From the IMG/VR virus record IMGVR_UViG_3300011113_000446, positions 1 through 21,351 of that record: a DNA stretch of 21,351 nucleotides. One strand, written 5' to 3'. Positions 3,681 through 21,351 of this stretch are shown here, in pieces. Position 1 is the stretch's first letter. Each line of letters opens with the position of its first letter. The notes below the pieces were generated by a model. It did no database searches. It saw only the letters and a list, made by a program, of their open reading frames with translations, and was not told the DNA's origin. The translations under genes were made by a program, and so were the position numbers. This DNA comes from a virus.

Positions 3681-4690
3681 TGGATTTTTTAAAGGAGATG
3701 ATTAATGTTTCAGGAAACAAATACGCAAGCAAAGTGGAAGACGGACTTGACGGTGCAGATGTTAGTGGTTATATTGACACTGGTTCATATACCTTTAATG
3801 CTTTGCTCTCTGGTAGTTTATATGGTGGTCTTCCTGCTAACAAGATCACTTGCTTGGCTGGTGAATCTGCTACTGGTAAAACCTACTTTAGCATTGGGAT
3901 TGTGGATCAATTCCTTAAACAAAACCCATCAGGAGTAGTACTGTACTTTGATACAGAACAAGCAGTAACAACTGAAATGTTTACTGAGCGTGGTGTTGAT
4001 GCATCTAGAGTTGCAGTCTTCCCTGTAGAAACAGTAGAAGAGTTTCGCCATCAGTGCTTGACAATTGTTGATAAGGTTCTTGCAACAGAGGAATCTGAAC
4101 GTAAGCCAATGATGATTGTCCTGGACTCACTGGGCATGTTGAGTACTGCTAAGGAAATGAGCGATGTCGCTGAAGGTAAGAATGTCCGCGACATGACAAG
4201 AGCACAAGTCATCAAGGGAACATTCCGTGTTCTTACACTGAAGCTTGGAAAGGCAAGAATTCCCATGATTATGACAAACCATACCTACGATGTAGTAGGA
4301 GCCTATGTTCCAACCAAGGAACTTGGTGGTGGATCTGGTCTAAAATATGCGGCTTCTACTATCGTAACATTGTCCAAGAAGAAGGACAAGCAGGATGATG
4401 AAGTTGTAGGTAATATCATTACTTGCAAGCTTTACAAGAGCCGACTAACCAAGGAAAACAAGATCGTTCAGGTTCAACTGAATTTCGATAGCGGTCTGAA
4501 CCGTTACTACGGTCTTGTTGACCTTGCCTTGGATTACGGTATCTTCAAGAAGAACTCTACCAAGATTGAGCTTCCTGATGGTACAAAGGTGTTTGAGAAG
4601 CATATCAACGAAGAACCTGAGAAGTATTTCACTCAGGAGATTCTAAAGCAAATTGATGAGCGCGTTCAGGAGGATTTCAAGTATGGCTGA
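3680..4690 (+). CDS. uvsX: UvsX, RecA-like recombinase
   Basis: UvsX is the phage RecA/Rad51-type strand-exchange ATPase, which forms filaments on single-stranded DNA during recombination-dependent replication and repair. The 336-residue protein has Walker A G61-ESATGK67-T68, the glutamate switch/catalytic region YFDTE93Q and Walker B MIVLD149. It also has the TNHTY segment (about 200-204) and a glycine-rich GGGSG loop, all in the positions of T4 UvsX (391 aa). It is shorter at the C-terminus, where T4 carries an acidic tail. AAGGAG at 3666-3671, eight bases before ATG 3680, supports the start. It sits between gp43 and the gp41 helicase genes. T4 UvsX needs UvsY as mediator; no uvsY-like gene is recognisable in this window. 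Confidence 0.96.
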
Positions 4691-4955: not shown

Positions 4956-5250
4956 CTTACGCCCCGACATGAATGCGGAGACCATGCCATTAGAAGTTGC
5001 TGATGGTAAATTTAAAGGTTACGTCTTCACTCTTGGTAAAATTCACATCAAGGAAGACAATGACCAGTTGCTTTTGGACTTCACTTATGATATTCTAGAG
5101 GGAGATATCACAGGCATTCCAAAGAAAGAATTTGATGTCATTGTAGGTGATATTGTTGTCCAATTACTTGAGGAAGAAGAAGCCCGTATAGGCAAGGAGC
5201 CAATTGATGTCGATGGAGAAAATTATATTGAAGAATCTAGCGACGAATGA
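4942..5250 (+). CDS. Small acidic phage protein of unknown function (102 aa)
   Basis: The protein is a 102-residue soluble acidic protein with a predicted beta-rich middle (FKGYVFTLGKIHIKE, LLLDFTYDIL) and a glutamate-rich C-terminal tail. It overlaps the previous gene by 14 bases. AAAGGA at 4928-4933, eight bases upstream, supports ATG 4942. Its 3' end overlaps the gp41 helicase start by 44 bases. Its place between uvsX and gp41 in a replication operon suggests a replication or recombination accessory, but no T4 homologue (for example gp59 or UvsY) can be assigned by eye. Confidence 0.75.
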   Translation: MKKYNLRPDMNAETMPLEVADGKFKGYVFTLGKIHIKEDNDQLLLDFTYDILEGDITGIPKKEFDVIVGDIVVQLLEEEEARIGKEPIDVDGENYIEESSDE

Positions 5251-6601
5251 GACTTACGCCAGAAAGGTTCATCCGTTCCTCAAGCAAGAATATTTTGGCA
5301 GCACTACTACAAAGACTGTCTTTGATCTAATCAATAACTTCATTTCGAAGTACAATAGCCTCCCCTCAAGGGAGGCTATGATTATTTCTCTTAACGAGAT
5401 GGACATTGTTTCCGAGGATCAATACAAGGAAACACATGAATGTATCGAAGAAATTTTTTCTAATTCTGAGTCAAGTGAACTTACTTGGCTCGTAGAACAA
5501 ACTGAAAACCATGTTAAGGACAAGGCTGTTTACAACGCAATCATGGATTCAATTCATATCATTGAAGGTAAGTCCAAGACATACACAAAGAACGCCATTC
5601 CTAGTATTCTTTCTAATGCATTGTCAGTATCCTTTGATAATCATATCGGCCACGATTATATTGATGATGCAGAGCGACGATTTGCCTTCTACCACCAAGT
5701 AGAAAAGCGGGTTCCATTTGATCTTGAGTTTTTCAATGCCATTACTGGTGGTGGTGTGCCATCCAAAACACTTAATATTGTCATGGCGGGTACAGGTGTA
5801 GGTAAATCACTATTCCTTTGCCATCACGCAGCCAATTGCTTGATGCAGAATCTAAATGTACTTTACATTACATGCGAAATGGCTGAAGAGCGGATTGCAG
5901 AACGCATTGACGCAAATCTACTGGATATCACGATTGACGATCTCAAGACCCTGCCTAAGTCCATCTACGACAAGAAGATTGCAGATCTTCAATCTACGAT
6001 CAAGTCCAAACTTATTGTCAAGGAATATCCAACAGCATCAGCATCAGTCACTAACTTCAAACATCTACTGGATGAATTGAAGATTAAAAAGCGATTTGTG
6101 CCTGATGTTATTTTCATTGATTATTTGAATATCTGTGCATCTGCTCGGCTCAAGGCTGGTGCGAATGTGGGTAGCTATTACTACATTAAGGCTATTGCCG
6201 AAGAGATTCGTGGGTTGGCAGTGGAATACAATGTGCCAATCTTCTCTGCTACCCAAGTCAATCGTTCGGGATTTGCCAATAGTGATTTTGGTCTTGAGGA
6301 CACATCTGAATCATTCGGTCTACCAGCAACTGCGGATTTCTTTGTTGCACTTATCGCCACGGAAGAACTCGATGAACTTGACCAAATTATGGTCAAGCAG
6401 TTGAAGAATCGCTATAATAGCGCAACGGTAAACAAGAAGTTCGTCCTTGGCATCAATCGGGCAAAGATGAAGCTCTTTGATGTCAAGCGCGAAGAACAGC
6501 AGAATATTTCTGAGTCAAATCAGAACAATCCTCATGGGTATGGGGATGGATTTGACGGTAAGAAGTTTAGCCGTGACTTTAGCGACTGGACGATTGAATG
6601 A
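5207..6601 (+). CDS. 41: Replicative DNA helicase gp41 (DnaB-like)
   Basis: gp41 is the hexameric 5'-3' helicase that unwinds the replication fork and pairs with the gp61 primase. The 464-residue protein aligns with T4 gp41 along its length: N-terminal domain MEKIILKNL...YARKVHPFLKQEYF (3-30), Walker A G195-TGVGK200-S201, catalytic glutamate in CE224MAEE, Walker B VIFID305YLNIC and the SESFGLPATADF region (about 370). No intein interrupts it. ATG 5207 has AAGGAG at 5194-5199 seven bases upstream. ATG 5213 or TTG 5204 are less likely. It overlaps the preceding gene by 44 bases and the primase gene by 4 (ATGA), which suggests coupled translation. Confidence 0.96.
   Translation: MSMEKIILKNLATNETYARKVHPFLKQEYFGSTTTKTVFDLINNFISKYNSLPSREAMIISLNEMDIVSEDQYKETHECIEEIFSNSESSELTWLVEQTENHVKDKAVYNAIMDSIHIIEGKSKTYTKNAIPSILSNALSVSFDNHIGHDYIDDAERRFAFYHQVEKRVPFDLEFFNAITGGGVPSKTLNIVMAGTGVGKSLFLCHHAANCLMQNLNVLYITCEMAEERIAERIDANLLDITIDDLKTLPKSIYDKKIADLQSTIKSKLIVKEYPTASASVTNFKHLLDELKIKKRFVPDVIFIDYLNICASARLKAGANVGSYYYIKAIAEEIRGLAVEYNVPIFSATQVNRSGFANSDFGLEDTSESFGLPATADFFVALIATEELDELDQIMVKQLKNRYNSATVNKKFVLGINRAKMKLFDVKREEQQNISESNQNNPHGYGDGFDGKKFSRDFSDWTIE
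5355..5379 (+). promoter_or_regulatory. Perfect 10-bp hairpin inside gp41 coding sequence
   Basis: The arm ATAGCCTCCC (5355-5364) pairs perfectly with GGGAGGCTAT (5370-5379) around the 5-base loop CTCAA. It is GC-rich within AT-rich DNA and lies about 150 bases after the gp41 start. No T run follows, so a terminator is unlikely. An mRNA processing, stability or translational site is possible. The right arm contains a GGGAGG Shine-Dalgarno-like stretch that the hairpin would hide. Confidence 0.5.
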
Positions 6602-7605
6602 GCGCATACATTGACAAGATGTTCATTAACATGGTTTCCGACAACCTGAAAAGGTTTAAATGGAAGAAAGACAATCTTGCTAATTGTCGCTGTCCATTCT
6701 GCGGAGATTCCAAGAAGCGTAAGAACATTGCCCGGGGGTATTTCTACCAAAAGGGCAATGATTTCTTTTTCCGTTGCCATAACTGTGGATACGGCACTAA
6801 TCTTTACAATTTCTTGGACAACATGAACCCAAATCTTGCCAAAGAATACGCTTTGCGTAGATTTACCTGTGGAGAAAATGGAAGATCCAATTACAAGAAA
6901 CCAAAGAATGAAGAACTTTTTACCCCAAGCAAGAAAGTTGCTATATTCGAAAAGCCGATCAATAGCGTCAATGTTTGTGACCTTAGTCCTGATGATAAAG
7001 TCGTTCAGTATCTTGAAAGTCGTAAGATTCCCGATGAATCGCTGTGCTATTTTTATTACACCGAGGACTTCTCACAACTCGCCAAATACTTTGATCCCGA
7101 GCACAATCTCAAACCAGAGCCGAGACTCGTCATTCCATTCTATAATGACTCAAAGGAACTCATTGGAGTCCAAGGTCGTGCGTTGGAAGCAGATTCCAAA
7201 ATCCGCTATATTACTCTCAAGAAGGATTCGGTGGAGAAATTATGGTATGGACTTTGGAGAGTGAATCCAGAGGAACCAATCTATATCACAGAAGGACCGA
7301 TTGACAGCATCTTCCTACCTAACTCTCTTGCAATGGTTGGTGCTGCTGGGGACATGAAGCTTCCTGAGAAGATTGCAAAGAGTGAGGTAATCTATGTCTT
7401 TGATAACGAGAAGCGCAACAAACAGATATGTGCGTTTATGGAAACTGTCATTGAGAAAGGCCATAAGATTCTTATTTGGCCAGATGTTAAGGTCAAGGAT
7501 ATTAACGACTATGTTCTTGCGTTTGGTGATCCGATGGCTATGATACGCTCCAATACGCATTCAGGTCTTGAAGCAAAATTGAGGTTTATGAAATGGAAAA
7601 AGTAA
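6598..7605 (+). CDS. 61: DNA primase gp61 (zinc-binding and Toprim domains)
   Basis: gp61 is the phage primase that makes RNA primers at the fork with the gp41 helicase. The protein is 335 residues, close to T4 gp61 (342). An N-terminal zinc ribbon is seen as C32-PF-C35 ... C60-HN-C63, with C30 nearby. A Toprim catalytic domain follows: YITE232GPID236 and VIYVFD269NE271, with the predicted catalytic E and the DxE-type pair present. The start overlaps the gp41 stop in ATGA and no strong ribosome site precedes it, so translation probably depends on gp41. The 3' end overlaps thyX by 13 bases. Confidence 0.93.
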   Translation: MSAYIDKMFINMVSDNLKRFKWKKDNLANCRCPFCGDSKKRKNIARGYFYQKGNDFFFRCHNCGYGTNLYNFLDNMNPNLAKEYALRRFTCGENGRSNYKKPKNEELFTPSKKVAIFEKPINSVNVCDLSPDDKVVQYLESRKIPDESLCYFYYTEDFSQLAKYFDPEHNLKPEPRLVIPFYNDSKELIGVQGRALEADSKIRYITLKKDSVEKLWYGLWRVNPEEPIYITEGPIDSIFLPNSLAMVGAAGDMKLPEKIAKSEVIYVFDNEKRNKQICAFMETVIEKGHKILIWPDVKVKDINDYVLAFGDPMAMIRSNTHSGLEAKLRFMKWKK

Positions 7606-8297
7606 ATGTACTTGATAAGGGTTTCGTTCGACTCATCGAAGTGATGGGTTCTGATTTGACCGTTGTAAATGCGGCCAGAGTTTCGTTCCACAAGGAATCA
7701 TCCTGGGACGGAGAACAGCACTGGACCGGATCAATTACTGGTAAGAAGCTACCAGACAAGGACAAGAAGCTTATTTCGTATCTGGCCAAGCACAAGCACT
7801 GGACCCCTTTTGCCCATCCCCAGATCATGCTTCACATTAAGGCCCCTATTTCGATTCGTACCCAGCTTTTTAAGCACAAGGTCGGGTTCGTTGAAAACGA
7901 AATTTCTCGTCGGTATGTAACCGAAGAACCAGAAATTTACATTCCAAAATGGCGTACAAAGCCTACAAATGGGGCCAAGCAGGGGTCAGAAGACTTCCTG
8001 ACCAATGAAGACACGCTAGCGGCTGCTGAGGCCATGTACTTTGAGGTGGCTAGCGATGCTCTAAAGACCTACCAATGGCTCATTGGGGCGGGAATTGCCC
8101 CAGAACAGGCTCGTTTTGCCCTACCCCAGGGTACATATACCGAATGGTACTGGACGGGTTCTTTGGCCGCTTATGCCCGCGTTTTTAAGCAAAGAATCGA
8201 CCCCCATGCTCAATGGGAGGTTCGGGAATACGCAAATGCCATGGGTAGACTGATTCAGCCTTATTTTCCCGTCTGCTGGGAAGAACTCACGAAGTAA
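7593..8297 (+). CDS. thyX: Flavin-dependent thymidylate synthase ThyX with variant signature
   Basis: ThyX makes dTMP from dUMP using FAD, NADPH and methylene-tetrahydrofolate. The 234-residue protein keeps the family layout: HKHWTPFAHP (67-76), the active-site helix with FKHKVGFVENEISRRY (93-108) and R174-x-x-LP. A C-terminal nucleotide-binding segment (QRIDPHAQWEVREYA, 200-214) follows. The classical RHR-x7-S motif is changed to K94-H95-K96 with eight residues before S105. A similar change occurs, as I recall, in other phage ThyX proteins. GAGG at 7581-7584, eight bases upstream, supports the start. Codons are more GC-rich than in neighbouring genes, hinting at separate acquisition. It works with the NrdJ reductase next to it to supply dNTPs. 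Confidence 0.93.
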   Translation: MEKVNVLDKGFVRLIEVMGSDLTVVNAARVSFHKESSWDGEQHWTGSITGKKLPDKDKKLISYLAKHKHWTPFAHPQIMLHIKAPISIRTQLFKHKVGFVENEISRRYVTEEPEIYIPKWRTKPTNGAKQGSEDFLTNEDTLAAAEAMYFEVASDALKTYQWLIGAGIAPEQARFALPQGTYTEWYWTGSLAAYARVFKQRIDPHAQWEVREYANAMGRLIQPYFPVCWEELTK

Positions 8298-8300
8298 ATA

Positions 8301-8328
8301 TTGACTAAATACCCAACACGGCTAGAAT
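8301..8328 (+). promoter_or_regulatory. Sigma70-type promoter upstream of nrdJ
   Basis: TTGACT (8301-8306) and TAGAAT (8323-8328) are separated by 16 bases in the 54-base gap between thyX and nrdJ. The predicted start point near 8335 lies just before AAAGGA (8339-8344) and ATG 8352, giving a very short leader. It would let host RNA polymerase transcribe nrdJ and the ruvC-like gene separately from the upstream block. Confidence 0.5.
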
Positions 8329-8351
8329 GCCACAACTTAAAGGATTTTCAT

Positions 8352-10274
8352 ATGTCACTACCAACTCCATATCAGAGTTTTATTCACGCTTCCCGTTACG
8401 CTCGTTGGATCGATGAGGAAACACGAAGAGAGTCATGGAACGAAACCGTTACTCGTTACTTTGACTTCTTTGAAAAGCATCTTAAAGAAAATTGCAATTA
8501 CAAGATGCCCAAGGATCTACGCAAGGAGCTTGAAACAGCTGTTCTGAACTTGGAAGTGATGCCGTCTATGCGCTGCCTCATGACCGCAGGCGAGGCATTG
8601 GAGCGCGACCATGTAGCAGGGTATAACTGCTCTTATGTTTCTACGAGCAAGGTTCGCTCGTTTGATGAGATTCTATACATCTTAATGTGCGGTACAGGTG
8701 TTGGATTCTCCGTCGAAAGGGATTTCGTTGAAAAACTTCCTACTATTGCTGAAGAATTTACCGACAGTGATTCGCTCATTGTTGTGGAGGACTCTAAGAT
8801 TGGCTGGGCCAAGGCTTACAAAGAACTCTTCTCGCTACTTATTGGTGGTCAGATACCGCGATGGGACATTTCGAAAATTCGCCCTGCGGGAGCGAGACTT
8901 AAAACATTCGGTGGACGAGCATCGGGACCTGAACCTCTGGAAGACCTTTTCCGATTTACCGTTGAAACCTTCCGTAAGGCAGCGGGTCGTAAACTCACGA
9001 CTGTCGAATGTCACGATATCGTATGTAAAATTGCTGAAATCGTAGTTGTCGGTGGCGTTCGTCGTTCTGCTCTTATCTCTCTATCGTCACTTGACGATGA
9101 CCGCATGCGTAATGCAAAGAGCGGTGCATGGTGGGAGAACAATGGTCAACGCGCACTAGCAAACAACTCTGCTTCATACAAGAGCAAGCCAGACATGGAA
9201 ACCTTCATGGACGAATGGGTTGCACTTGTCAAGAGCAAGAGCGGTGAGCGCGGTATCTTCAATCGTCAGGCTGCAAAGAATCAAATCAAGCGTCTTGGTG
9301 ATCGTCGCAATCCAAACTATGACTTCGGAACCAATCCTTGCTCAGAAATTATTTTGCGTGATCGTGAGTTCTGCAATCTATCTGAAGTTGTGATTCGTGC
9401 TGACGATACTCCAGATACTCTTGCTCGTAAGGTTCGTCTTGCTACCATTCTTGGCACATTCCAGTCAACTCTTACAAACTTCCGTTACCTTTCAAGTGAC
9501 TGGAAGAAGAACTGCGAAGAAGAGCGTCTGCTTGGGGTGTCTCTGACTGGTATCATGGATAACGAGATCACTAATGGCCGTGCTGGTGATCTACCCGATC
9601 TACTTGAGCATCTACGCCATGTCGCGGTGGATACCAACAAGGAGTATGCTCATAAGCTAAAGATCAATGAGTCTGCTGCAATCACTTGCGTCAAGCCAAG
9701 TGGCACTGTTAGCCAGCTTGTTGATGCTGCTTCAGGGATTCATGCTCGTCACGCTAATTATTATATTCGTCGCGTTCGCGCTGACCGCAAGGATCCAATC
9801 TGCCAGTTTATGATTGACAAGGGATTCCCTGCCGAGCCATGCGTCATGAAGCCAAACCACACTATGGTCTTCTCGTTCCCCATGAAGGCTCCGGAGCATT
9901 GCATTACTCGTAATGACATGACTGCTCTTGAACAATTGAAACTCTGGCTCACCTATCAGCAGTACTGGTGCGAACACAAGCCAAGCGTTACCATCACTGT
10001 TCGTGACGAGGAGTGGATGGAAGTTGGAGCCTGGGTCTATAGCCACTTTGACGAGATCAGCGGTATTTCGTTTCTTCCGCACTCAGATCATACCTACCGT
10101 CAGGCTCCATACGAAGACTGCACCAGAGAACAGTACGAAGCCATGCTTGCCAAGCTTCCAAAGGATGTTGATTGGAGTGAATTGTCCAAGTATGAGAAGG
10201 AAGACAACACCACAGGAACCCAGACTTTCAGCTGCACGGCTGGGTCATGTGAGTTAGTTGACTTGACTAAATAA
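8352..10274 (+). CDS. nrdJ: Adenosylcobalamin-dependent ribonucleoside-triphosphate reductase (class II)
   Basis: NrdJ reduces ribonucleotides to deoxyribonucleotides using vitamin B12 coenzyme, with no need for oxygen or a second subunit. The 640 residues match the monomeric Lactobacillus leichmannii type. C93 (NCSYV) and C341 (FCNLSE) are the redox pair. N328-PC330-S-E332 carries the thiyl-radical cysteine and its partners, 11 residues before C341 as in the family. The C-terminal shuttle pair C628-x4-C633 is intact. No intein or insertion breaks it. ATG 8352 has AAAGGA seven bases upstream; an in-frame TTG at 8301 overlaps the promoter and is unlikely. The enzyme implies that the host makes or imports cobalamin. 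Confidence 0.95.
   Translation: MSLPTPYQSFIHASRYARWIDEETRRESWNETVTRYFDFFEKHLKENCNYKMPKDLRKELETAVLNLEVMPSMRCLMTAGEALERDHVAGYNCSYVSTSKVRSFDEILYILMCGTGVGFSVERDFVEKLPTIAEEFTDSDSLIVVEDSKIGWAKAYKELFSLLIGGQIPRWDISKIRPAGARLKTFGGRASGPEPLEDLFRFTVETFRKAAGRKLTTVECHDIVCKIAEIVVVGGVRRSALISLSSLDDDRMRNAKSGAWWENNGQRALANNSASYKSKPDMETFMDEWVALVKSKSGERGIFNRQAAKNQIKRLGDRRNPNYDFGTNPCSEIILRDREFCNLSEVVIRADDTPDTLARKVRLATILGTFQSTLTNFRYLSSDWKKNCEEERLLGVSLTGIMDNEITNGRAGDLPDLLEHLRHVAVDTNKEYAHKLKINESAAITCVKPSGTVSQLVDAASGIHARHANYYIRRVRADRKDPICQFMIDKGFPAEPCVMKPNHTMVFSFPMKAPEHCITRNDMTALEQLKLWLTYQQYWCEHKPSVTITVRDEEWMEVGAWVYSHFDEISGISFLPHSDHTYRQAPYEDCTREQYEAMLAKLPKDVDWSELSKYEKEDNTTGTQTFSCTAGSCELVDLTK
10263..10273 (+). repeat. 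Direct repeat flanking nrdJ
   Basis: TTGACTAAATA here, at the end of nrdJ, exactly repeats 8301-8311 just before nrdJ. The first copy contains a promoter -35 box. The second has no good -10 at normal spacing. The pair brackets the nrdJ cistron. Chance cannot be excluded for an 11-base AT-rich word. Confidence 0.4.
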
Positions 10275-10277
10275 TAT

Positions 10278-10838
10278 GTGATATTAGCTGGAATTGATTA
10301 CTCTTTAACTTCCCCATGCATTTGCGTCTTTAATGGCCATCTGCATGGGGAGTTTTCTTATAAAAATTGTTCGTTTTATTTCTTAACCGATGTTAAGAAA
10401 AATGCAACATTGTTTAATAATAATATTCGCGGAGAATTATTTCCAGAATATAATGCTGAATGTGGAAGATACGATAGCATCTCAGACTGGGCTTTAGATT
10501 TATTAATTGGATCTACACTTGTTGCTCTTGAGGATTATGCATATGCAGCAAAAGGTAGAGTGTTTCACATAGCCGAAAATACAGGAATACTAAAATATAA
10601 ATTATGGCAAAATTCTATTCCTCTTGATGTAGTTCAGCCTTCAAGAGTAAAAAAATTTGCAAGTGGAAAAGGAAATGCAAATAAACAAGAAATGTTTGAA
10701 GCATTTGTCAAAGAAACAGGGATAGATCTTAGAATTCATTTTGATTCTATTGACAGAGAAATTAAAAGCCCAATATCAGATGTTGTTGATGCTTATTACA
10801 TCTGCAAATATAATTACAAAGAATTAAATTTAATCTGA
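10278..10838 (+). CDS. RuvC-like Holliday junction resolvase / RNase H-fold nuclease
   Basis: The 186-residue protein has the four acidic positions of a RuvC-type nuclease: GID7YSLTSP in the first strand, VALE85DYAY, and D168/D171 in the last helix (SPISDVVDAYYIC). A basic segment (VQPSRVKKFASGKGNANK, 119-136) could bind DNA. RuvC-like resolvases occur in T4-like marine phages, where they may replace endonuclease VII (gp49) in resolving branched DNA before packaging; that role is inferred. The start is GTG 10278, needed to keep D7, with no Shine-Dalgarno visible. A hairpin covers codons about 11-26. Codon use is clearly more AT-rich than nrdJ. It is the last plus-strand gene, and its end overlaps the convergent gene by 9 bases. 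Confidence 0.8.
   Translation: MILAGIDYSLTSPCICVFNGHLHGEFSYKNCSFYFLTDVKKNATLFNNNIRGELFPEYNAECGRYDSISDWALDLLIGSTLVALEDYAYAAKGRVFHIAENTGILKYKLWQNSIPLDVVQPSRVKKFASGKGNANKQEMFEAFVKETGIDLRIHFDSIDREIKSPISDVVDAYYICKYNYKELNLI
10307..10354 (+). promoter_or_regulatory. Hairpin in the 5' coding part of the ruvC-like gene
   Basis: CCCCATGCA (10312-10320) pairs with TGCATGGGG (10342-10350). AACT (10307-10310) pairs with AGTT (10351-10354) beyond a single bulged T, around a 21-base loop. TTTTCTTA follows at the right arm. It lies 33 bases after the nrdJ stop and could limit read-through from nrdJ or lower translation of the GTG-started nuclease. The function is inference. Confidence 0.45.
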
Positions 10839-13800
10839 TTCGTCCGGGATATTTTCTTCTTCTGGAATATTTTCTTCATCTGTGACGATGGGCAAATTGT
10901 TTTCTAATCTTTGTCTTGCCTGCCATCGTCTAATAAACATAAACGCATCTGCTAAACGATTCGGATCGTCATATCGGAGCCAATCTAAATACGCACTTAT
11001 TGCATTTTGAATTTCTTTATCCGCAGATTGTATATCAAAATTATATTTTGCTAACCATGCCCATAATAGTTCTTGTTCTTGTGCTGTCATATAATCACTA
11101 TAATCTATATCTGGATTATCTCTCATTATACTAATATCTCTATCAAAATTTCTAATGTATCTTTGCATTTCAGGATTATTCATAACTTCTGGAGAAGGTG
11201 TATAATCATCAGAACTTTCTTTTAATATACCAGCTTTTCTCTTTGTTTCATCATCTACTTCATATCCTGCTTCTTGTGCTTGACGAACAGCATCTAAAGC
11301 AGCTGCTTTAGCTTCAATTTCTTCTTTTCTCTTTTCTCTTTCCGTATCGGCAGCAACTTGTTCTGGAGTTCTAGCCTTCATTTTCTTCTTGGCTTCTTCA
11401 GCTGCTTCAAAATCTAGCTGCTGAACAGTCTTAGCTCCAGGACCTAGTTGTTTTTCTCTTGCTTCGATTGATTTCTGTCGCATTGATTCTGGAGTTTCTT
11501 TTCCGAAAAGAAGTTCAGAAGTCTTATCAATACCAGATATGATACCTCTAGCAGCATTTCCATAAGTAGCATCATATGCTCTTGACATAACTCCTGGTTT
11601 ATTTTCTTCTTTTTGCTTTTCTAAAGCATCAATACGCTTTCTGATTTCGTCTTTTTCTGCTTGACCACCACTAGCATTTTGGAGAACATCCTTTTGAATT
11701 CTAAGTTCTCTTTCTGTTGCTTCATAATCATCAAGACCAGACTGGAGATATCTTCCTGCTGCTGCACCAGCTGCCAACCCACCAGCTGCTACTGCTAAAG
11801 GAGCTGCGGCTACTGCTGCTGCTCCTGCTGCGGTTCCAGCTGCGGCAAGACCACCACCAGCTAATGCAGTACCAGCAGCGGATATTGCGGCAGGAACAGC
11901 AAGACCAGCACCTACTGTTGTTGCAACATTAAGAGCTTCTGTTCCGGTTCCTTGATATTTTGTTCCTTTGGAAAATTCATCAAAAGCTGTAAATGCAGTT
12001 CCAGCTACACCAAGTAGTTTACCACCAAGCTTTCCTGTCTTTGCTGCTTCGGCGGCTTTAGTGAATTTAGTTCCTTCTTTACCAACACTAACAGCTTTTT
12101 GAGTTAATCTTTGTGCTGCTCTGTCGATCTTAGCATCAGAAACTCCTGCTAATTTACCGCCATATTTGGCTTCTCTACCAAAAATCTTTACTGCTTTTCC
12201 AATTTTTTCTCCGCGATCTATTGTTTTTGCTAATGCTGATCCTAATGCAGGATTTTTGTCTGCAAGCATTGCGGATTTCAATACGGCAGATTTTACTGCA
12301 CTTTTTCCAACATCAACGCTCTTTGCTGTTAGTTTATCCAATCCTGTTTTTACTGTAGAACCAAATAATTTACCGCCTTGCTTTATTGCTTTTCCGGTTC
12401 TTAGAGCATCGATTTTTACAGCATTTCCAGCAGTTCTAAGTGTTTGATTCTGTGCTGCTTTTTCAAGAGCAGACTTTCCAAGACTAGTAACGACTCTTTG
12501 TGTTACTTCTCCTGCTTTTTCTCCAGCAGCTCCACCGACAATACCGCTAGAAAATTCGATGGCTCCTCTTCCTAGTTCGTTTTGAATTCCTAATCTATCG
12601 GCAATTGCGGTTCCAATTTGTTCTCCAACATCGAAACCAGCAGCACCGCCTACTATTCTACCACCAAGACCTGGTTTTAATAAAGTAGTTCTTGGTTGAA
12701 ACACAGCTTGACCAGCAGTAAATGCTAGTTCGTCAACTACAGATCCACCCCTGAGTACATCTACTCCACCAACAGATATTTTGTACTTATCTAATTCGTC
12801 GTAAAATTCTTGTGGAATAATTGTTCTTGCTCCTGCTACGCCAACGCCTCCACTTATAAATGAAGCTAAAGATCTTCCAAACTTTTTTTCTCCTTGAACA
12901 GCTCTAGATCTTCTTGCTGCTCTTGAAGCTGCTTCTTGTTCTGCTTCTGATGCAGCTTGGGTGGCCGCAGCTCTTTCTGGATCAAATGTGCTAGATGCTC
13001 TTCTGGTTGGAGCATCTGTATCAGGGGCAAGATCAATAGGTCCAGTTTCTCTTGGAGGTGCAGCTCTCTCTGGAGCAAGTTCTACTGGTCTTGCTGGATC
13101 GCTTATTCTACTTCCAGTTCTTACTTCTAGTTCTCCAGGTGCTTCTAAAGGAATAGATCTTCCTCCAGATCTAGAAACAGTAGGTCCAGTAGCTACTCTT
13201 CTAGATCTAGTTGATCCTTCTGGTGCTAAAGGAATAGCATCACTAGTAGTTGCAGGAATTGTATTTGTTGCTGGAATTGGTACAGTTCTGCTAGTTCCTT
13301 CTGGAGCCAGTCTTAATCTACGAGGTGGTTTAGCATCTGTGGTTGTAGCTGGAGCTTTCTTCGCTGTCTTTTTAGTTGCAGCTGGAGTTGTAGTTGGAGC
13401 TTTCTTTCCTGTTTTTTTAGCTGTCTTTTTAGTTGCAGCTGGGGTTGTAGCTGGAGTAGCAGCTGGTGCTGATGTTGCAGCTGGTGCTGGTTTTGCAGCT
13501 GGTGCAGTTGGTGCTGAAGATTTTTTTGCTGTCTTTTTAGTTGCAGCTGGGGTTGTAGCTGGAGTAGCAGCTGGTGCTGATGTTGCAGCTGGTGCTGGTG
13601 TTGCAGCTGGTGCAGTTGGTGCTGAAGATTTTTTTGCTGTCTTTTTAGTTGCAGCTGGGGTTGTAGCTGGAGTAGCAGCTGGTGCTGATGTTGCAGCTGG
13701 TGCTGGTTTTGCAGCTGGTGCAGTTGGTGCTGAAGATTTTTTTGCTGTCTTTTTTCTAGCAGCATCATTTCTTCTAAGTCTTTCGGCAAAATCGGATGCG

Positions 13801-13895
13801 TCCCATTTACTCGTATCGGGATTTTCATCCATTAAATTTGCTGGAAAACCATCTTTTCTTTTAGCTTCAATTAAGTACTTATAGAGATAATTCAT
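10830..13895 (-). CDS. Large repeat-containing late protein, candidate internal/ejected virion protein
   Basis: I do not recognise this 1021-residue protein as a named family. The N-terminus MNYLYKYLIE/A resembles the T4 capsid-targeting peptide MKTYQEFIAE/A. Residues 52-159 are three nearly identical 36-residue repeats rich in Lys, Ala, Pro and Thr (KKTAKKSSAPTAP...), like histone H1-type tails. A Pro/Arg-rich low-complexity region follows to about 300. Next comes a Gly/Ala-rich, mostly helical body with lysines, including a very hydrophobic Ala/Gly stretch at about 655-718 that could insert in membranes. The C-terminal third is charged coiled coil with an acidic tail (EENIPEEENIPDESD). The start overlaps the lipoprotein gene in ATGA, third in a late operon. 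A DNA-bound internal protein ejected with the genome is an inference; a structural or tail-lumen protein is an alternative. Confidence 0.85.
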   Translation of the reverse strand: MNYLYKYLIEAKRKDGFPANLMDENPDTSKWDASDFAERLRRNDAARKKTAKKSSAPTAPAAKPAPAATSAPAATPATTPAATKKTAKKSSAPTAPAATPAPAATSAPAATPATTPAATKKTAKKSSAPTAPAAKPAPAATSAPAATPATTPAATKKTAKKTGKKAPTTTPAATKKTAKKAPATTTDAKPPRRLRLAPEGTSRTVPIPATNTIPATTSDAIPLAPEGSTRSRRVATGPTVSRSGGRSIPLEAPGELEVRTGSRISDPARPVELAPERAAPPRETGPIDLAPDTDAPTRRASSTFDPERAAATQAASEAEQEAASRAARRSRAVQGEKKFGRSLASFISGGVGVAGARTIIPQEFYDELDKYKISVGGVDVLRGGSVVDELAFTAGQAVFQPRTTLLKPGLGGRIVGGAAGFDVGEQIGTAIADRLGIQNELGRGAIEFSSGIVGGAAGEKAGEVTQRVVTSLGKSALEKAAQNQTLRTAGNAVKIDALRTGKAIKQGGKLFGSTVKTGLDKLTAKSVDVGKSAVKSAVLKSAMLADKNPALGSALAKTIDRGEKIGKAVKIFGREAKYGGKLAGVSDAKIDRAAQRLTQKAVSVGKEGTKFTKAAEAAKTGKLGGKLLGVAGTAFTAFDEFSKGTKYQGTGTEALNVATTVGAGLAVPAAISAAGTALAGGGLAAAGTAAGAAAVAAAPLAVAAGGLAAGAAAGRYLQSGLDDYEATERELRIQKDVLQNASGGQAEKDEIRKRIDALEKQKEENKPGVMSRAYDATYGNAARGIISGIDKTSELLFGKETPESMRQKSIEAREKQLGPGAKTVQQLDFEAAEEAKKKMKARTPEQVAADTEREKRKEEIEAKAAALDAVRQAQEAGYEVDDETKRKAGILKESSDDYTPSPEVMNNPEMQRYIRNFDRDISIMRDNPDIDYSDYMTAQEQELLWAWLAKYNFDIQSADKEIQNAISAYLDWLRYDDPNRLADAFMFIRRWQARQRLENNLPIVTDEENIPEEENIPDESD
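13420..13743 (-). repeat. Three tandem 108-bp repeats encoding a Lys/Ala/Pro-rich array
   Basis: Units at 13420-13527, 13528-13635 and 13636-13743 are in frame. The first and third are identical by eye. The middle one differs by one base (T to G), changing a Lys to Thr. A partial unit follows to about 13754. Degenerate copies of the KKTAKK segment lie on the other side, down to about 13360. Near identity at the DNA level points to recent expansion. Confidence 0.95.
13866..13895 (-). other. Capsid-targeting-like leader (residues 1-10)
   Basis: MNYLYKYLIE followed by Ala matches the form of the T4 internal-protein leader, which is ten residues long and ends I-A-E before cleavage by the gp21 prohead protease. 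The T4 protease consensus is (Leu/Ile)-x-Glu; here it is L8-I9-E10. No prohead protease gene lies in this window, so cleavage is predicted only. Confidence 0.5.
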
Positions 13896-14603: not shown

Positions 14604-15659
14604 TTACCGCATAAATCGTCTATACCAACGTAAAGGATTAGTATCAAAATAATATGGTCCAGGATTTTGGGGATCGGCATCATATTCGTTTGGAATTCCA
14701 TCACCATCAATATCCTTGTCTATATCATCTGAAATGTTATCACCATCTACGTCGGCATCATATTCGTTTGGAATACCATCATTATCAGTATCTTCGTCTG
14801 GATAAAAATCTTCTTGCCAATCGGGAATTCCATCACCATCGCTGTCCATGGAAAATTCTCCCTCAAGAGCATCATCAACACCGTTTCCATTTGCGTCACC
14901 TGTAAAATCAGGAACACCATCTCCATTTGAATCTGCCATATAAGGATCCCATGGAGTAAGATCACCTATATAAGGTAACATGGTAGGATCAGGAATCAAT
15001 CTTAAAGGTTGAACGCCACTATCTGGGCCACCACCTTCCCAAGGCATCCAATCTTGAGTTACGGCACTTTCAGAAACAACACCGAGTGAACAGGCTTGTT
15101 TCTTTTTTATTTTGTGTCTTCTTAGAATTTGAATGTCATTATCTTCATCTCCACAGCATTTGCACCCAGCAGGCATACCATGTCTTCTAGGAACAACTAC
15201 GTCTTGAGGGTTTGACGAAGAAACGCCAACGCCTGCTATTCCACCACCGCCAACACTCATATCCTCAACAAGATAATCAAGTAATGAAGTTTCGTAATTT
15301 TGAAGATTGTGTAGTTCCAAAAGGTATAAAGATTCGTGTGGTAATACTCCATATTGGTACATTTCATTTAAAAATAGATCAAGAATAGCAAGATTATTAT
15401 TTAATGCAGAACGAATTCCTGGTTCTGGTACTTTAGCTAAAAGTTTTTTTAACTTGATTATAAGAACGTCAAGAGGATCTATTCTTGCTTTATCAAGAAC
15501 GTCATCAAGTTTCTTTATAAAATTTCCTTGGCTATCAATGTAGCCTTTCTTATATGCATCCATGCTAGTAAATGGAGTTGATAGCAGTGTAAGAAACTTG
15601 TAAATAGTAAAGCTTCTTACCATTAAAGACGCATTTTGGAATTTTTCATTCAGTTGCAT
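14604..15659 (-). CDS. Late phage protein with C-terminal thrombospondin-3-like calcium-binding repeats
   Basis: The 351-residue protein has two parts. Residues 1-135 are helical (FLTLLSTPFTSMDAYKKGYID, then LLDYLVEDMSVGGGG). They resemble a conserved domain I recall from proteins of marine T4-like phages, of unknown function. A linker holds a cysteine cluster C166-K-C168-C169 plus C190. Residues 243-330 contain repeated D-x-D/N-x-D-G-I/V-P motifs (DSNGDGVPD, DSDGDGIPD, DTDNDGIPN, DIDGDGIPN), typical of thrombospondin type 3 calcium-binding repeats of secreted and surface proteins. Calcium binding is therefore likely; a role in the virion surface or adsorption is inference. The start overlaps the upstream gene by 14 bases with a weak ribosome site. 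Confidence 0.85.
   Translation of the reverse strand: MQLNEKFQNASLMVRSFTIYKFLTLLSTPFTSMDAYKKGYIDSQGNFIKKLDDVLDKARIDPLDVLIIKLKKLLAKVPEPGIRSALNNNLAILDLFLNEMYQYGVLPHESLYLLELHNLQNYETSLLDYLVEDMSVGGGGIAGVGVSSSNPQDVVVPRRHGMPAGCKCCGDEDNDIQILRRHKIKKKQACSLGVVSESAVTQDWMPWEGGGPDSGVQPLRLIPDPTMLPYIGDLTPWDPYMADSNGDGVPDFTGDANGNGVDDALEGEFSMDSDGDGIPDWQEDFYPDEDTDNDGIPNEYDADVDGDNISDDIDKDIDGDGIPNEYDADPQNPGPYYFDTNPLRWYRRFMR
14670..14933 (-). repeat. Thrombospondin-3-like repeat array
   Basis: The stretch encodes residues 243-330 with at least five aspartate-rich DxDxDG-type loops. Part of it is also repeated at DNA level: the about 30-base segments starting at 14674 and 14752, 78 bases apart, differ at only a few positions, which suggests internal duplication of a 26-residue unit. 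Confidence 0.85.
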
Positions 15660-16547: not shown

Positions 16548-18398
16548 TTAGCTATTTATGGATTTTTTTACGATTCTTCTTAAGTTTTCTAATCTTAGAG
16601 CCTTAGAATTGAATTTTTTACCTGACTTACCTACCTTCAATGGTGGAAGATCGTTTTCCAATTTTTCTGGCTTAAATGCCTTATTGTTCAAATCTTCAGT
16701 TTCTTCTGGAGTAGAATCGATTTGCATTGAATCGATATATGGAGCAAACTGTTCTTGCACTGACTTCCATTTTCCACCCTTCTTCTTGTAGCATTTTGCA
16801 GCCCAAGCATTGGCATAAGCTGAGTTTCCTGTTATGGTTACAAATCCGTTTTGAATCATAACCCAAGTGTTATTCTCAGTTTCAGGACACCACACTTCTC
16901 CAGTACCAGCATCTTCAATTATTAGATTTTGGGTATTGTGTGTTTTCTTATTTCTAATAATTGTAGCGGACTTCATTTCTGGATATTTGTCGGAAAAAGA
17001 AACATGATAACCATTTAAGGATGCTGCGAGAATAGCAGCGTAGAAATGATCTTCGTTCTTTTGACTAAACCCAAATGTATGACGATTTTCTATCTTTGTG
17101 CTGATTCCCTGATCATGGCCATCATAAACAATTGCACTGGCCAAAAATATTTCTCTTTGTTCTTTGGACATAGAAAGAACTTTTTCTGTCCATGAGTTTT
17201 TCTTTGACCAATTTTCTAAAATTAAATCAGAATAATTGTTAAGTTCTGAGCAACAAACTAGTTGCATGTGCTTATTGATATCCTTAGTTTCTACCAAACC
17301 AGTATTTTGATAGTCAGAACCACTCTTAACTACCCATTTGTGATTAGGGGTGCATTTTATCTTAAATCCGGTTGCTTTACCCATCTCTACAATAGGAGCT
17401 TCATCAAAATGATGAAGATTTAATATTGGTTTCCATTCAAGTTCATCGTTTTGAATATTGTATGTTAAAATTTCATCTCCAATTACAAGATTGTGGTAGC
17501 TTTCTGGTCCATTTCTAGTAATTGCTAAAGAATCCATTGTGACGCATGGATATACGTCAAACTTCTTCTTTGCCTGTGCTTTGCAAGAGGCCCACTTCTT
17601 TGGTTTCTTGGGAACATTCTTTTCGATTAAATCCACAATCTCTTGTACTTCAGTTGCTTCTTTAAGCATGTCTCCAACGGACTTGTCGGCTCTCCACATC
17701 TGGCAGCTCCAGTAACGAGCCTTAGTCTTTGGACCAGGATTATCGTCGCATGAGTGACGAGCACGGAAGTTCTTTCTGCGCTTTGGATCATCACGCTTGA
17801 TAGACATATTCTTATCACCGAAGTTTACTTTAACAATATTTCCTTTTTCGTTCTTTACATAAACCTTGAACTTTTTTACATCACCTTTCATTGGTTTATT
17901 TAAACGAGGAGTCTTTTCTTCTCCGATAATTTTTTTCATTGGATCTTCCATTTCTACTCTTTCTCTGTCTATCATACAATCAGGTGTTTTATATTTTTTA
18001 TTTCTTTTTGAGATGTTCATAGTTTGACCGGGAGTCATAGACGGTCCTTTTTTATGAATATCTCTGTTTGTATTTATGAAGACTTGTTCGTTTATTCCTG
18101 TATCGACATTGATTGGTTTCTTTCCTTTACGTCCAGAACCTTTCTTTCCTCTACCCTTTGCAGATTGTGCAGCTCTTTTTCTCTTTACAAAGCTTCCTAT
18201 TTTTTCTTTTCCTAGTCTTGCGGCCTTTTGTTTTGAGAGACAAGCAGCATAAGGCTCACCTTTCTTGGCATCACCGCATTCACCGACACGCTGTCCCTTT
18301 GAGTTATACCGATCCCAACCAGGCTTACCACCAGCTGATTCGTCATGAAACCATTTTCCAAGACCAGATTTACGATAGACTTCATTTATATCTCTCAT
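16548..18398 (-). CDS. Cys/Trp-motif phage protein (DUF5872-like) interrupted by an intein
   Basis: The 616-residue frame encodes a host protein (extein) of 375 residues plus a 241-residue intein. The extein has three modules that recur in marine phages and giant viruses: GLGKWFHDESAGGKPGWDRY...CGDAKKGEPYAAC (12-53), KFKVYVKNEKGN...FRARHSCD...YWSCQMW (176-235), and KKWASCKAQAKKKFDVYP joined to SAYANAWAAKCYKKKGG (268-284 plus 526-542). Their function is unknown. A long Lys/Gly-rich stretch (60-95) is strongly basic. The intein sits between P284 and S526, exactly inside the conserved third module, so splicing would restore VYP-SAYANAW. The start overlaps the upstream gene in ATGA. Codon composition varies along the gene: the 17560-17800 region is less AT-rich than the intein. 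Confidence 0.88.
   Translation of the reverse strand: MRDINEVYRKSGLGKWFHDESAGGKPGWDRYNSKGQRVGECGDAKKGEPYAACLSKQKAARLGKEKIGSFVKRKRAAQSAKGRGKKGSGRKGKKPINVDTGINEQVFINTNRDIHKKGPSMTPGQTMNISKRNKKYKTPDCMIDRERVEMEDPMKKIIGEEKTPRLNKPMKGDVKKFKVYVKNEKGNIVKVNFGDKNMSIKRDDPKRRKNFRARHSCDDNPGPKTKARYWSCQMWRADKSVGDMLKEATEVQEIVDLIEKNVPKKPKKWASCKAQAKKKFDVYPCVTMDSLAITRNGPESYHNLVIGDEILTYNIQNDELEWKPILNLHHFDEAPIVEMGKATGFKIKCTPNHKWVVKSGSDYQNTGLVETKDINKHMQLVCCSELNNYSDLILENWSKKNSWTEKVLSMSKEQREIFLASAIVYDGHDQGISTKIENRHTFGFSQKNEDHFYAAILAASLNGYHVSFSDKYPEMKSATIIRNKKTHNTQNLIIEDAGTGEVWCPETENNTWVMIQNGFVTITGNSAYANAWAAKCYKKKGGKWKSVQEQFAPYIDSMQIDSTPEETEDLNNKAFKPEKLENDLPPLKVGKSGKKFNSKALRLENLRRIVKKSINS
16553..16560 (-). promoter_or_regulatory. 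T4-type late promoter (CATAAATA)
   Basis: The minus strand reads CATAAATA, fitting NATAAATA, 15 bases before ATG 16537, with AAAGGAAG between them. The spacing matches the promoter at 14587-14594. It overlaps the last codons of the upstream intein-containing gene. Confidence 0.6.
16824..17546 (-). mobile_element. Intein with degenerate LAGLIDADG-like insert
   Basis: The 241 residues run from C285 to N525 of the host frame. Splicing block A is C285-VTMDSLA ... LVIGDEILTYN, block B is GFKIKCTPNH353KW, and blocks F/G are VWCPETENNTWVMIQNGFVTITG-N525 followed by the nucleophile S526. The penultimate residue is Gly rather than the usual His, as in some phage inteins. Between B and F lies about 150 residues with one LAGLIDADG-like motif (FLASAIVYDGH, 418-428) followed by a typical strand-helix (FGFSQKNEDHFYAAILAASLNG). 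This looks like a single or decayed homing-endonuclease half. Protein self-splicing is predicted from these motifs. Confidence 0.88.
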
Positions 18399-19021
18399 GG
18401 ATTACCTAGTGCTATTTGATGTCCCAGTTGAACTTCGATTCTATCTTTGGCATACTTCATTTCATCTGATGCCATTTGTTCTTTAACTTGGCTTACCTTT
18501 TCATCGCTACACCAATGGATTATTACATAACCAACATTGACTCCCTTACTCTGAAGTGGAATTGCCATATAAGCAACAACATTGCTAGAAATGAAAAGTT
18601 GTTTCTGATATGATTCTTTCATAACAGCAACAATTTCAAATTTATATTTGCTATCTAGAATTGATCGAATAAAGTCAATGTAGGCAGAGATAAGAACATC
18701 CTTCTTATGATGAACCTCTGCGCTGATACCTGAGCGAAGAGATTCGTGAGTTAGACTCATCTTCTTCATGGATACTCCATCCATGAAGTATTCTCCGTTA
18801 TGGAATTGAATGATCTGTGCTCTTGCTGCGTCTGTACGAATACGAAGCTCAGTAAGGATTTCATGAATCTCTGAATGAATATTCCAGTATTCTTTGCCTT
18901 CCTTTTTCTTTTTGCTTGAGAAGATCTTGTCCTTAATCTTCTTTATTCCGTAATAAGCTCCAACAAGAAATGTGGCGGTAGCTATACCATACTCAAACAA
19001 TTCAGGATTCAGGTCAAACAT
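18395..19021 (-). CDS. Membrane-anchored GAF-like protein
   Basis: The 208-residue protein has an N-terminal hydrophobic segment (YGIATATFLVGAYYGI, 11-26), then a Lys-rich stretch (27-43) that would face the cytoplasm. A helix (IHSEIHEILTELRIRTDAARAQI) leads into a domain with QFHNGEYFMDG (72-82), SLTHE (89-93) and a closing strand GYVIIHW (164-170). The HNG motif and alternating strands resemble GAF-type sensor domains seen in some phage proteins. I cannot say what ligand it senses. AAAGGA lies upstream of ATG 19021, which shares one base with the stop of the previous gene; its stop overlaps the intein gene in ATGA. Confidence 0.7.
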   Translation of the reverse strand: MFDLNPELFEYGIATATFLVGAYYGIKKIKDKIFSSKKKKEGKEYWNIHSEIHEILTELRIRTDAARAQIIQFHNGEYFMDGVSMKKMSLTHESLRSGISAEVHHKKDVLISAYIDFIRSILDSKYKFEIVAVMKESYQKQLFISSNVVAYMAIPLQSKGVNVGYVIIHWCSDEKVSQVKEQMASDEMKYAKDRIEVQLGHQIALGNP

Positions 19022-21345
19022 TACTTATCCTTTCCCTTAAATGTATTGGTTATCCCCTTACGAGCTTTCTCATAAGTTTCTCCCTTTCTATGTCCATTAT
19101 CAGAACGGTTTTCGCCCTTGTTCCTCAAACGAAGATTTTTAGGAGAGTTGTTCATGGGGTTGCCGTCTTTGTGGTCCACATCCTTACCTTTGATAGCGGC
19201 TGCACCCCATTTTTTTGCTGCGGCTCTTCTAGCCTTATTTCTATTTGATCTGTGATGGCTAGTTTTTTTTGAGTATTCTTTTTCGTATCCTTGAAGTTTT
19301 TCAAGAATAGTAGATTTTCTCTTTCCTCTATTTTGATCTATTACAGCAGTTATTAGTTCTACAAGATCTTGTGGAATAGATCCTGTTGCTTTTGAAGATT
19401 GTAATCTTCTCTTTGCACTTTCGCTAAGTTCTACATTATTTAAAATATAATCACAAGCTTCTTCAAGATCCTCTTTGATGAATACGGTTGTCATATCACC
19501 CTTATCGATTGAGATAGGAATCTTGAACTCTTTATCACCAATCTTGACCAAATTAAATTGTGAACTCTTTTTCTGAGCAGGAGTTATTTTTTCTCCAGGA
19601 TTTAGTGATAAACTATACTCAAAATCAAAGCTGTTTATTATTGCCTGGTATATTGCAGCATCAGAATTTGCAAGAAGCTCGGCAGTGTTTATTAATCTGC
19701 TCTTGTAACCACCAGTTGGTTTTAGTTCTTGTTTTACTTGCTCTACTATTGTTCTAAACTTTTCTAGGGCTTTTGGTACTTTGCTTCCTGTTTTCTTTCT
19801 TCCCTTTGAAGATGATACGGAAGATTTTAATTTTACATTTACATCAGCCATCTGTGCATAGTAATTCACCATATCTTCAGTGATTATGAATAGTCCATTG
19901 TCAGTCAATAGATGGGTTGCATTTGCTCTTGGATCTTGCCCATTCACACCAACAAGATAGTGACGAGTCAATTCTTTTACTATTGTTCCAAAGAAAGCTG
20001 ATTCCTTTAAAATAGATTTCTTTCTTGAAATTTGTTCTACAACTAATTCAATAATATCGTTATACGCTGATAACTTAGCAGTTTCAAGAATATATCCTTC
20101 GTCATCAAGTAATCCATTATCATCAAGATACTTCATGAATCCTTCATCTTGAGATGGATTTTCGTCTATGTCGTTCACAAGGAAGACAGATAGGTTTAAC
20201 ATTTCCTTCTTGACCTGTGCAAGAACTATGGATAAACCATCATCGTCTAGTATATCTGGATCTTGGGGAATAGCAATTGGAACCAATGAGTTAATGATAT
20301 TCTGCATCTTAACTCCATAGTTCGGTGAATCGGTAGAATCCTTGATATAAACTTTACCGACAACTACTCTAAAAGCATTGTCTCCGCAGATTAACGATGT
20401 TCTCTTGAATCCTGGGAAGTCTTCAGTAACATCAAGCTCATCTACATGGTATAGGTTCTGGAAACACGATTCTCCCAGAACGGATAGTAAAGCTCTTGCG
20501 GTGTCAAACGATGCCTCATCAAAATCAAAGAATCTTTCATCATCAAATTTACGCATCAATTCAATCTCTTGTTGCGAAGCTCCAGAAGAGACTCTTGATA
20601 CTAGGATTAATGCATTTTCAAGTTGAAACTCTTTATCATCTTTGCTGATTGAGAATACCCCAAGAGTTTCGGCCAACATCTTATATGAAATATTACTCAG
20701 ATTTTCAAATACATTCTTTATCTTCTTTCGAAGGGGTCTGAGTTGTTCAAGTGCGATAAGATAATCCATTGCTGGAGCAATTTCTGTTGGTTGAGTTTTT
20801 GCTTCTGGGTCTTGGATAATTCCTTCTTGGGGTTGGAATGTTTCTTGTTCTTCTTGTTCATAAATAAATTTTTGTGATTGTAAAGAGATATCTTCTTCCA
20901 ATTTTCTTTCTATTCTCTTTCTAATCTTATCCTTTTCTCTCTTTCCACCAGTCAACGACATTGAAGTTGATAGCTTGAAGTCTTTTCTAAAATCTCTAAG
21001 ACCTCTAAACTTGTCCTTTTTAGTTCTTGTTTTGCCAGATTGAGTATTTTCAAAGATTTGAGTCCAATCTTCGTATACTGGTTTGCTTATTGGCTGTTTA
21101 GCTAAAGCATCCTTGGCTCTAGCTTCACCTCTTTCTCTGGCTTGTTTGGCTCTAAGAAGTCTATTTCTTAGTTTAGCATCTCTTTCTAATCTTGTATTTT
21201 TAATTCTATTTCGCGCTCTCTCCTCTCTTTGAGAGAGAATTTCTTGTTTTAAGAAGTAGCCCTCATCTATCTTTTTACGGACAAATGGTAAAACTTCTTT
21301 CTTGTACATTTCGATGAAATTTTCGTCAAACCAGGTATTTTCCAT
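19021..21345 (-). CDS. Large basic late protein with C-terminal HNH-like domain
   Basis: The frame reaches the window edge; ATG 21345 is the first ATG and gives 774 residues, but the true start may lie beyond. The N-terminus (30-180) is strongly charged, Arg/Lys/Glu-rich and probably coiled coil. The middle (200-640) is a soluble mixed-fold region with several acidic patches that I do not recognise. The last 77 residues (HRSNRNKARR ... KGKDVDH725KDGNPMNN ... NLRLRNKGENR) match an HNH-nuclease-like zinc-less fold common at the ends of phage proteins. In late T4-like operons such tails occur on structural proteins, so a virion-linked nuclease or a former homing domain are both possible. It shares one base with the GAF-like gene start. 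Confidence 0.75.
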   Translation of the reverse strand: MENTWFDENFIEMYKKEVLPFVRKKIDEGYFLKQEILSQREERARNRIKNTRLERDAKLRNRLLRAKQARERGEARAKDALAKQPISKPVYEDWTQIFENTQSGKTRTKKDKFRGLRDFRKDFKLSTSMSLTGGKREKDKIRKRIERKLEEDISLQSQKFIYEQEEQETFQPQEGIIQDPEAKTQPTEIAPAMDYLIALEQLRPLRKKIKNVFENLSNISYKMLAETLGVFSISKDDKEFQLENALILVSRVSSGASQQEIELMRKFDDERFFDFDEASFDTARALLSVLGESCFQNLYHVDELDVTEDFPGFKRTSLICGDNAFRVVVGKVYIKDSTDSPNYGVKMQNIINSLVPIAIPQDPDILDDDGLSIVLAQVKKEMLNLSVFLVNDIDENPSQDEGFMKYLDDNGLLDDEGYILETAKLSAYNDIIELVVEQISRKKSILKESAFFGTIVKELTRHYLVGVNGQDPRANATHLLTDNGLFIITEDMVNYYAQMADVNVKLKSSVSSSKGRKKTGSKVPKALEKFRTIVEQVKQELKPTGGYKSRLINTAELLANSDAAIYQAIINSFDFEYSLSLNPGEKITPAQKKSSQFNLVKIGDKEFKIPISIDKGDMTTVFIKEDLEEACDYILNNVELSESAKRRLQSSKATGSIPQDLVELITAVIDQNRGKRKSTILEKLQGYEKEYSKKTSHHRSNRNKARRAAAKKWGAAAIKGKDVDHKDGNPMNNSPKNLRLRNKGENRSDNGHRKGETYEKARKGITNTFKGKDK

Positions 21346-21351
21346 ATACAA

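Follow-up and report, generated by a model that had tools for sequence, protein, structure and literature searches.

We analysed a 21,351-nucleotide stretch of viral DNA (the window) and found that its segment 16824-17546 is, to judge from its sequence, very probably a splicing-competent intein. It lies on the minus strand, as do all the features of its gene given below. The intein is encoded within a precursor reading frame of 616 amino acids (16548..18398), of which it forms residues 285-525 (241 amino acids). It begins with CVTMD and ends with TITGN, which is followed by Ser. Splicing is predicted to join the N-extein (residues 1-284; 17547..18398) and the C-extein (residues 526-616 plus the stop codon; 16548..16823) into a protein of 375 amino acids, with KKFDVYP-SAYANAWAAK at the junction. 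A preliminary description of this DNA had put an intein at these positions, and it was right to the base, as judged by profile matches, a fold model, and inserts at the same junction elsewhere. A related insert is found at exactly this junction in 47 other viral contigs, which excludes chance.

The interrupted unit is a short DUF5872-like module. Its first half, ending in KKFDVYP with Pro as residue -1 (17547..17606), gave matches to DUF5872 (0.004, below cut-off) and phrog_27331 (4e-6). Its second half, SAYANAWAAKCYKKKGGKWK (16764..16823), begins with Ser+1 (16821-16823). The host protein as a whole is a string of short modules, with phrog_7595 and weak DUF5754-like and DUF5872-like stretches. 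The phrog_7595/DUF5754-like module lies in the N-extein, at residues 154-235 (17694..17939; phrog_7595, 1.8e-10; DUF5754, 0.03, below cut-off). No module or profile match of the host protein assigns it a function, and none of its modules indicates that it is made late, so the earlier label of "late protein" was not borne out. The small interrupted module is common to many environmental phage proteins, and reading frames that have it uninterrupted range from about 50 to about 1000 amino acids. A literature search on DUF5872 and DUF5754 led to papers on algal giant viruses and polinton-like viruses.

Matches of the window intein to the Pfam Intein_splicing profile (2e-4) and the NCBIfam intein_Nterm profile (2e-3) were below the curated cut-offs, and these profiles matched 16 of 20 (best, 1e-6) and 15 of 20 family members, respectively. 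An AlphaFold2 model made with 20 family sequences had a pLDDT of 93.2. When this model was compared with the PDB by Foldseek, the PI-SceI and TliVMA inteins came first, and AceL NrdHF was first among endonuclease-free inteins, so that the modelled structure has the Hint fold. The N-terminal Hint (splicing) part corresponds to intein residues 1-105 (17232..17546) and contains blocks A and B (block B, 17328..17369). Block F, EVWCPETENNTWVMIQN, is at 16848..16898 and block G is at 16824..16847. All four blocks, the His at B:10, and the terminal Asn were present in 31 of 31 distinct inteins of the site, and the +1 residue was Ser in every allele read. The blocks, Cys1, the terminal Asn, and Ser+1 on which the preliminary description had relied are therefore all there and invariant in the same-site family. 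It had also remarked that two genes of kinds known to harbor phage inteins lack one in this window, and indeed neither the gp41-like helicase (5204-6601) nor the adenosylcobalamin-dependent, NrdJ-type ribonucleotide reductase (RNR; 8301-10274) gave an intein hit.

Public viral contigs contain both occupied and empty alleles of the site. At least 47 contigs besides the window have an intein at exactly the KFDVYP/SAYAN junction. A scan for KFDVYP-CV found 31 contigs, each with an intein at the junction, and the C-terminal junction was seen in all of those whose stretch reaches that far. Another 11 contigs with an intein at SAYAN, three of them cut off at the 5' end, came from scanning with conserved stretches of the intein, and a scan by the C-terminal junction alone, which leaves residue 1 free, yielded a further five occupied sites and an apparent remnant. 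The residues before the intein vary in some contigs (KFTVYP, KFKIYP, KFAVYP, KFDKYP, and KFTKYP). The preliminary description had given the rejoined motif as uninterrupted in many phage proteins, and we found intact FDVYPSAYAN in at least 120 contigs. In the best pairs of empty and occupied alleles, the joined flanks are 82-91% identical and the insert is missing exactly (L032/L126, 90.5%; L026/L162, 86.7%; L040/L052, 81.9%). Identity between the window and its best empty allele (L052) is 76% across the joined flanks. We saw no further, empty copy of the module in the examined stretches of intein-bearing contigs.

The 31 distinct inteins of the site are diverse, with identities down to about 27%. 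Twenty-six of them bear an endonuclease and are 237-263 amino acids long. Four contigs (L237, L240, L244, and L245) have mini-inteins of 138 amino acids without the endonuclease, and the intein of L238 (163 amino acids) is missing most of it. The mini-inteins retain every splicing residue; therefore, these residues are tied to splicing and not to the endonuclease. In L233 an apparent remnant consists of the last 12 intein residues, MVQDGVICVTGN, next to a shortened N-extein, although only this one contig shows it and misassembly may be the cause. Because empty, endonuclease-bearing, mini, and apparent remnant alleles coexist, all stages of a homing cycle are represented at one site. Two of the occupied contigs, L231 and L238, are very large (260 kb and 223 kb). 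Our searches of the isolate phage collection found no record with an intein here, and a scan of bacterial and archaeal genomes by two short peptide patterns found no relatives.

Eight residues are invariant in all 31 distinct inteins: Cys1 (A:1; 17544..17546), Thr66 (B:7), His69 (B:10), and Trp71 (B:12) in the N-terminal part, and Cys220 (F:4; 16887-16889), Thr239 (G:5), Gly240 (G:6), and Asn241 (G:7) in the C-terminal part. The window intein thus has Gly at G:6, where His is usual, and a Cys in block F; the preliminary description mentioned neither of these, nor the LAGLIDADG half-domain described below. A nucleophile at position 1 (Cys1 or Ser1) is the mark of class 1 inteins, and Cys1 was also found in all of the remote relatives examined. 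Trp B:12, Cys F:4, and Thr G:5 make up the class 3 triad (PMC5222942, PMC7891396). However, class 3 is defined by the absence of Cys1, as in a survey of 1701 class 3 inteins (PMC7891396), and we have not filed the family there because its Cys1 is invariant. With Cys1, a complete triad, and a penultimate Gly in 31 of 31 inteins, neither class definition fits cleanly. The features listed in the preliminary description implied ordinary class 1 chemistry, whereas the complete class 3 triad is present in the active site too.

Within the intein, residues 106-205 (16932..17231) are predicted to form one LAGLIDADG half-domain. In the models they run helix, strand, strand, helix, strand, strand around the LAGLIDADG-like helix REIFLASAIVYDG (17118..17156), which contains an acidic residue, Asp142, that is invariant in 26 of 26 endonuclease-bearing inteins. 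Purifying selection on the endonuclease part is strong: dN/dS is roughly 0.04-0.08 in pairs for which both rates could be estimated, and overall this part is constrained no less than the Hint part. A model of the isolated half-domain had no PDB match below an E value of 0.001, and designed proteins outranked LAGLIDADG enzymes. Because these fold matches were weak, we base the LAGLIDADG assignment on the full model and the alignment with two-repeat relatives. With a profile of the same-site family and those relatives, the match to the TliVMA intein plus LAGLIDADG reached 2.2e-9, and that to I-DmoI was weak (0.05). In the alignment, the VYP-site family and the inteins of phi92-like phage DNA polymerase I (Pol I) have one repeat, with the first repeat missing. 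Two repeats are found in relatives of 300-354 amino acids in Pol I, portal, methyltransferase, recombination directionality factor-type (RDF), and very large phage proteins.

To judge mobility, we compared inteins with their flanks in separate genomes, and in three pairs the intein is the more alike. The inteins of the window and L047 (the same contig as L001) are 95.2% identical in DNA, and the DNA just outside them is 55-68% identical. Mismatches per 50 bases number 35, 27, and 13 upstream, 0-7 inside the intein, and 17 and 36 downstream. Some tens of bases past the intein are still alike, as co-conversion would give. For the immediate neighbor genes on both sides, dS is about 2 or saturated. 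In the L021/L044 pair, the intein is 98.1% identical versus 69-81% in neighboring genes, and in the L031/L043 pair it is 93.8% identical versus 65.8% upstream. These comparisons indicate that the intein was recently transferred between different phages, and it is probably still homing actively. General recombination between the window and L047 phages also occurs, because the window's ThyX and RNR genes (7572-10271) and their counterparts in the L047 contig have about 95% DNA identity, compared with 45-83% for the other genes that the two share. This block appears to be a recent exchange between the two phages.

The invariant residues suggest how the intein would work after insertion between the Pro and Ser of the DUF5872-like module. 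A Cys side chain would attack the Pro-Cys junction, the N-extein would be transferred to Ser+1, and cyclization of Asn241 would then free the intein and leave the 375-amino-acid host protein rejoined. The LAGLIDADG half-domain, probably as a homodimer, would cut copies that lack the intein in co-infecting phages, and the intein would be copied into the cut allele by recombinational repair; of these steps, the movement itself is evident from the sequence comparisons. With time, copies would lose the endonuclease and then the intein.

One challenge to this scheme is that the segment belongs to the host protein as an ordinary domain. We found nothing in favor of this reading, and homologues containing the segment, which the preliminary description had named as a refutation, did not turn up. 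It is absent from all of the 120 or more uninterrupted homologues, and it is related to inteins of DNA polymerase I, portal protein, methyltransferase, and RDF genes. The empty alleles rule this reading out, and we give it practically no weight. A cleaving or inert Hint domain, in a host protein that tolerates the insert, would fit the lack of a known essential role for that protein and the non-canonical residues at -1 (Pro) and G:6 (Gly). Pro at -1 is unfavorable for the first splicing step. Even so, the splicing residues and Ser+1 are invariant even in the endonuclease-free mini-inteins, where only splicing remains for selection to act on, and a remote RDF relative that also has this Gly is able to splice, and replacing the Gly with His impairs it (PMC5050341). 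We reject an inert insert and consider a Hint domain that does not splice very unlikely. More serious is a working intein that follows the class 3 route, with Cys220 attacking the N-terminal junction first and Cys1 dispensable. This is a real possibility, though a minority one in our judgment. The triad is complete throughout the family, and the class 3 intein AceL NrdHF is the best endonuclease-free match by fold and by sequence, with the class 1 intein DnaX nearly equal by sequence. Tori and Perler reportedly found in 2011 that three inteins with mixed signatures were class 3. Ser, moreover, is the usual +1 residue of class 3 (PMC5222942). On the other side, one would expect Cys1 to drift if it were dispensable, the class 3 inteins of the published set lack Cys1 by definition, and Cys is the second commonest F:4 residue of inteins overall (PMC4031507), so that Cys F:4 alone is not diagnostic. 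We lean toward initiation by Cys1, because it is unchanged throughout this widely diverged family and in its remote relatives, in some of which Trp B:12 is replaced by Val or Met. It is improbable that Cys1 and Cys220 are used interchangeably.

A last alternative concerns the endonuclease and leaves splicing intact. The half-domain could be dead, with copies of the intein passed on together with the gene or spread through ordinary recombination between phages. The intein retains a single LAGLIDADG repeat, and some other segments have also been exchanged among these phages. Nor did the insertion site show a clear palindromic target, such as a homodimer might prefer: in a scan around the insertion site, one nearby center scored 7/11, but two other centers within 300 bases scored the same, so no palindrome could be distinguished from chance. 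However, a dead endonuclease is hard to reconcile with Asp142 in 26 of 26 inteins, with half-domain dN/dS of a few hundredths, and with the sharp fall in window/L047 identity at the edges of the intein. We therefore regard it as unlikely, and prefer an intein with a functional endonuclease.

The nearest isolate relatives of the window intein are the Pol I inteins of phi92-like Escherichia phages (PaulScherrer, MZ501100), which are about 30% identical over the whole intein. At 245 amino acids, they share the single LAGLIDADG repeat, Cys1, the triad residues, and the TGN end, but they are in DNA polymerase I (ESHY/C...N/C) and have Cys rather than Ser at +1. The annotated boundaries of the PaulScherrer intein (3522-4256 of MZ501100, our L016) are off by one residue; by splice motifs it should start with Cys and end with Asn. 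Portal inteins of Gordonia phage Woes and of phage GX15bay and the Pol I intein of Pseudomonas phage KIL1 also have Cys1, Trp B:12, Cys F:4, Thr G:5, and Gly G:6, but they are 331-354 amino acids long, with two LAGLIDADG repeats, and in other host genes. The mycobacteriophage RDF inteins (Switzer) share Cys1, Cys F:4, Thr G:5, and the penultimate Gly, but have Val at B:12, two repeats, and a metallophosphoesterase-like RDF as host. For the RDF intein of Bethlehem gp51, complete splicing in E. coli and a toxic endonuclease have been reported (Kelley et al. 2016, PMC5050341); the intein was treated in that paper as class 1.

More distant systems share single features. Class 3 inteins (Msm/Mch DnaB-1 and AceL NrdHF) have the triad and the Hint fold (PMC7664689, PMC7891396), with Met instead of the triad Trp in AceL NrdHF, but unlike the window intein they lack Cys1. 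The phage inteins gp41-1 and NrdJ-1 have the Hint fold too (NrdJ-1 match, 1.5e-4), but they are class 1 and in other host genes and sites. I-CreI and I-CvuI, single-motif LAGLIDADG enzymes that were among the weak fold matches, resemble the window intein in having one repeat; they are intron-encoded and free-standing, whereas the window repeat sits within an intein. Related two-repeat inteins, all with Cys1, Cys F:4, and TGN, occur at other sites in a Pol I-like gene (L220) and in proteins of 900-1700 amino acids (L221-L226). In Vibrio phage 249E41-1, an intein-like Hint/LAGLIDADG reading frame (L017:2389-3456) is a gene of its own that adjoins split DNA polymerase genes. The phosphoesterase intein of crAss-like phage cr53_1 (L177:1737-3242) has in-frame stops under table 11; therefore, another code may be in use.

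Homing phage inteins are a known kind of element. As far as our search reached, what is new is the insertion site, for which the literature search found no paper describing an intein, the occurrence of Cys1 alongside the class 3 triad throughout the family, selection on the single LAGLIDADG repeat, and the set of cycle stages found at one site. The origin of class 3 is disputed: a class 1 ancestor may have lost its Cys1, or class 3 may have arisen separately, as has been argued from the failure of attempts to graft the triad onto gp41-1 (PMC7664689). Invariant Cys1 together with the whole triad is the state that a stepwise route from class 1 to class 3 would need. Because the key residues of two self-removal chemistries are present in one intein, the origin of one of them now becomes testable. 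The coexisting alleles also allow the homing cycle to be studied in phages. Protein engineering usually avoids Pro at -1, and the 138-amino-acid mini-inteins, which have Pro there, may be of use to it.

Three other minus-strand genes of the window have features worth recording. The gene at 19021-21351 encodes a 776-amino-acid protein whose C-terminal end carries an HNH_3 endonuclease domain (residues 708-748). The gene at 10830-13895 encodes a 1021-amino-acid protein rich in Ala, Lys, and Pro, with KKTAKKSSAPTAPAA-type tandem repeats near the N terminus. The protein encoded at 14604-15659 has Asp-rich repeats (DSDGDGIPD, DTDNDGIPNEYDAD), which suggests that it may bind calcium.
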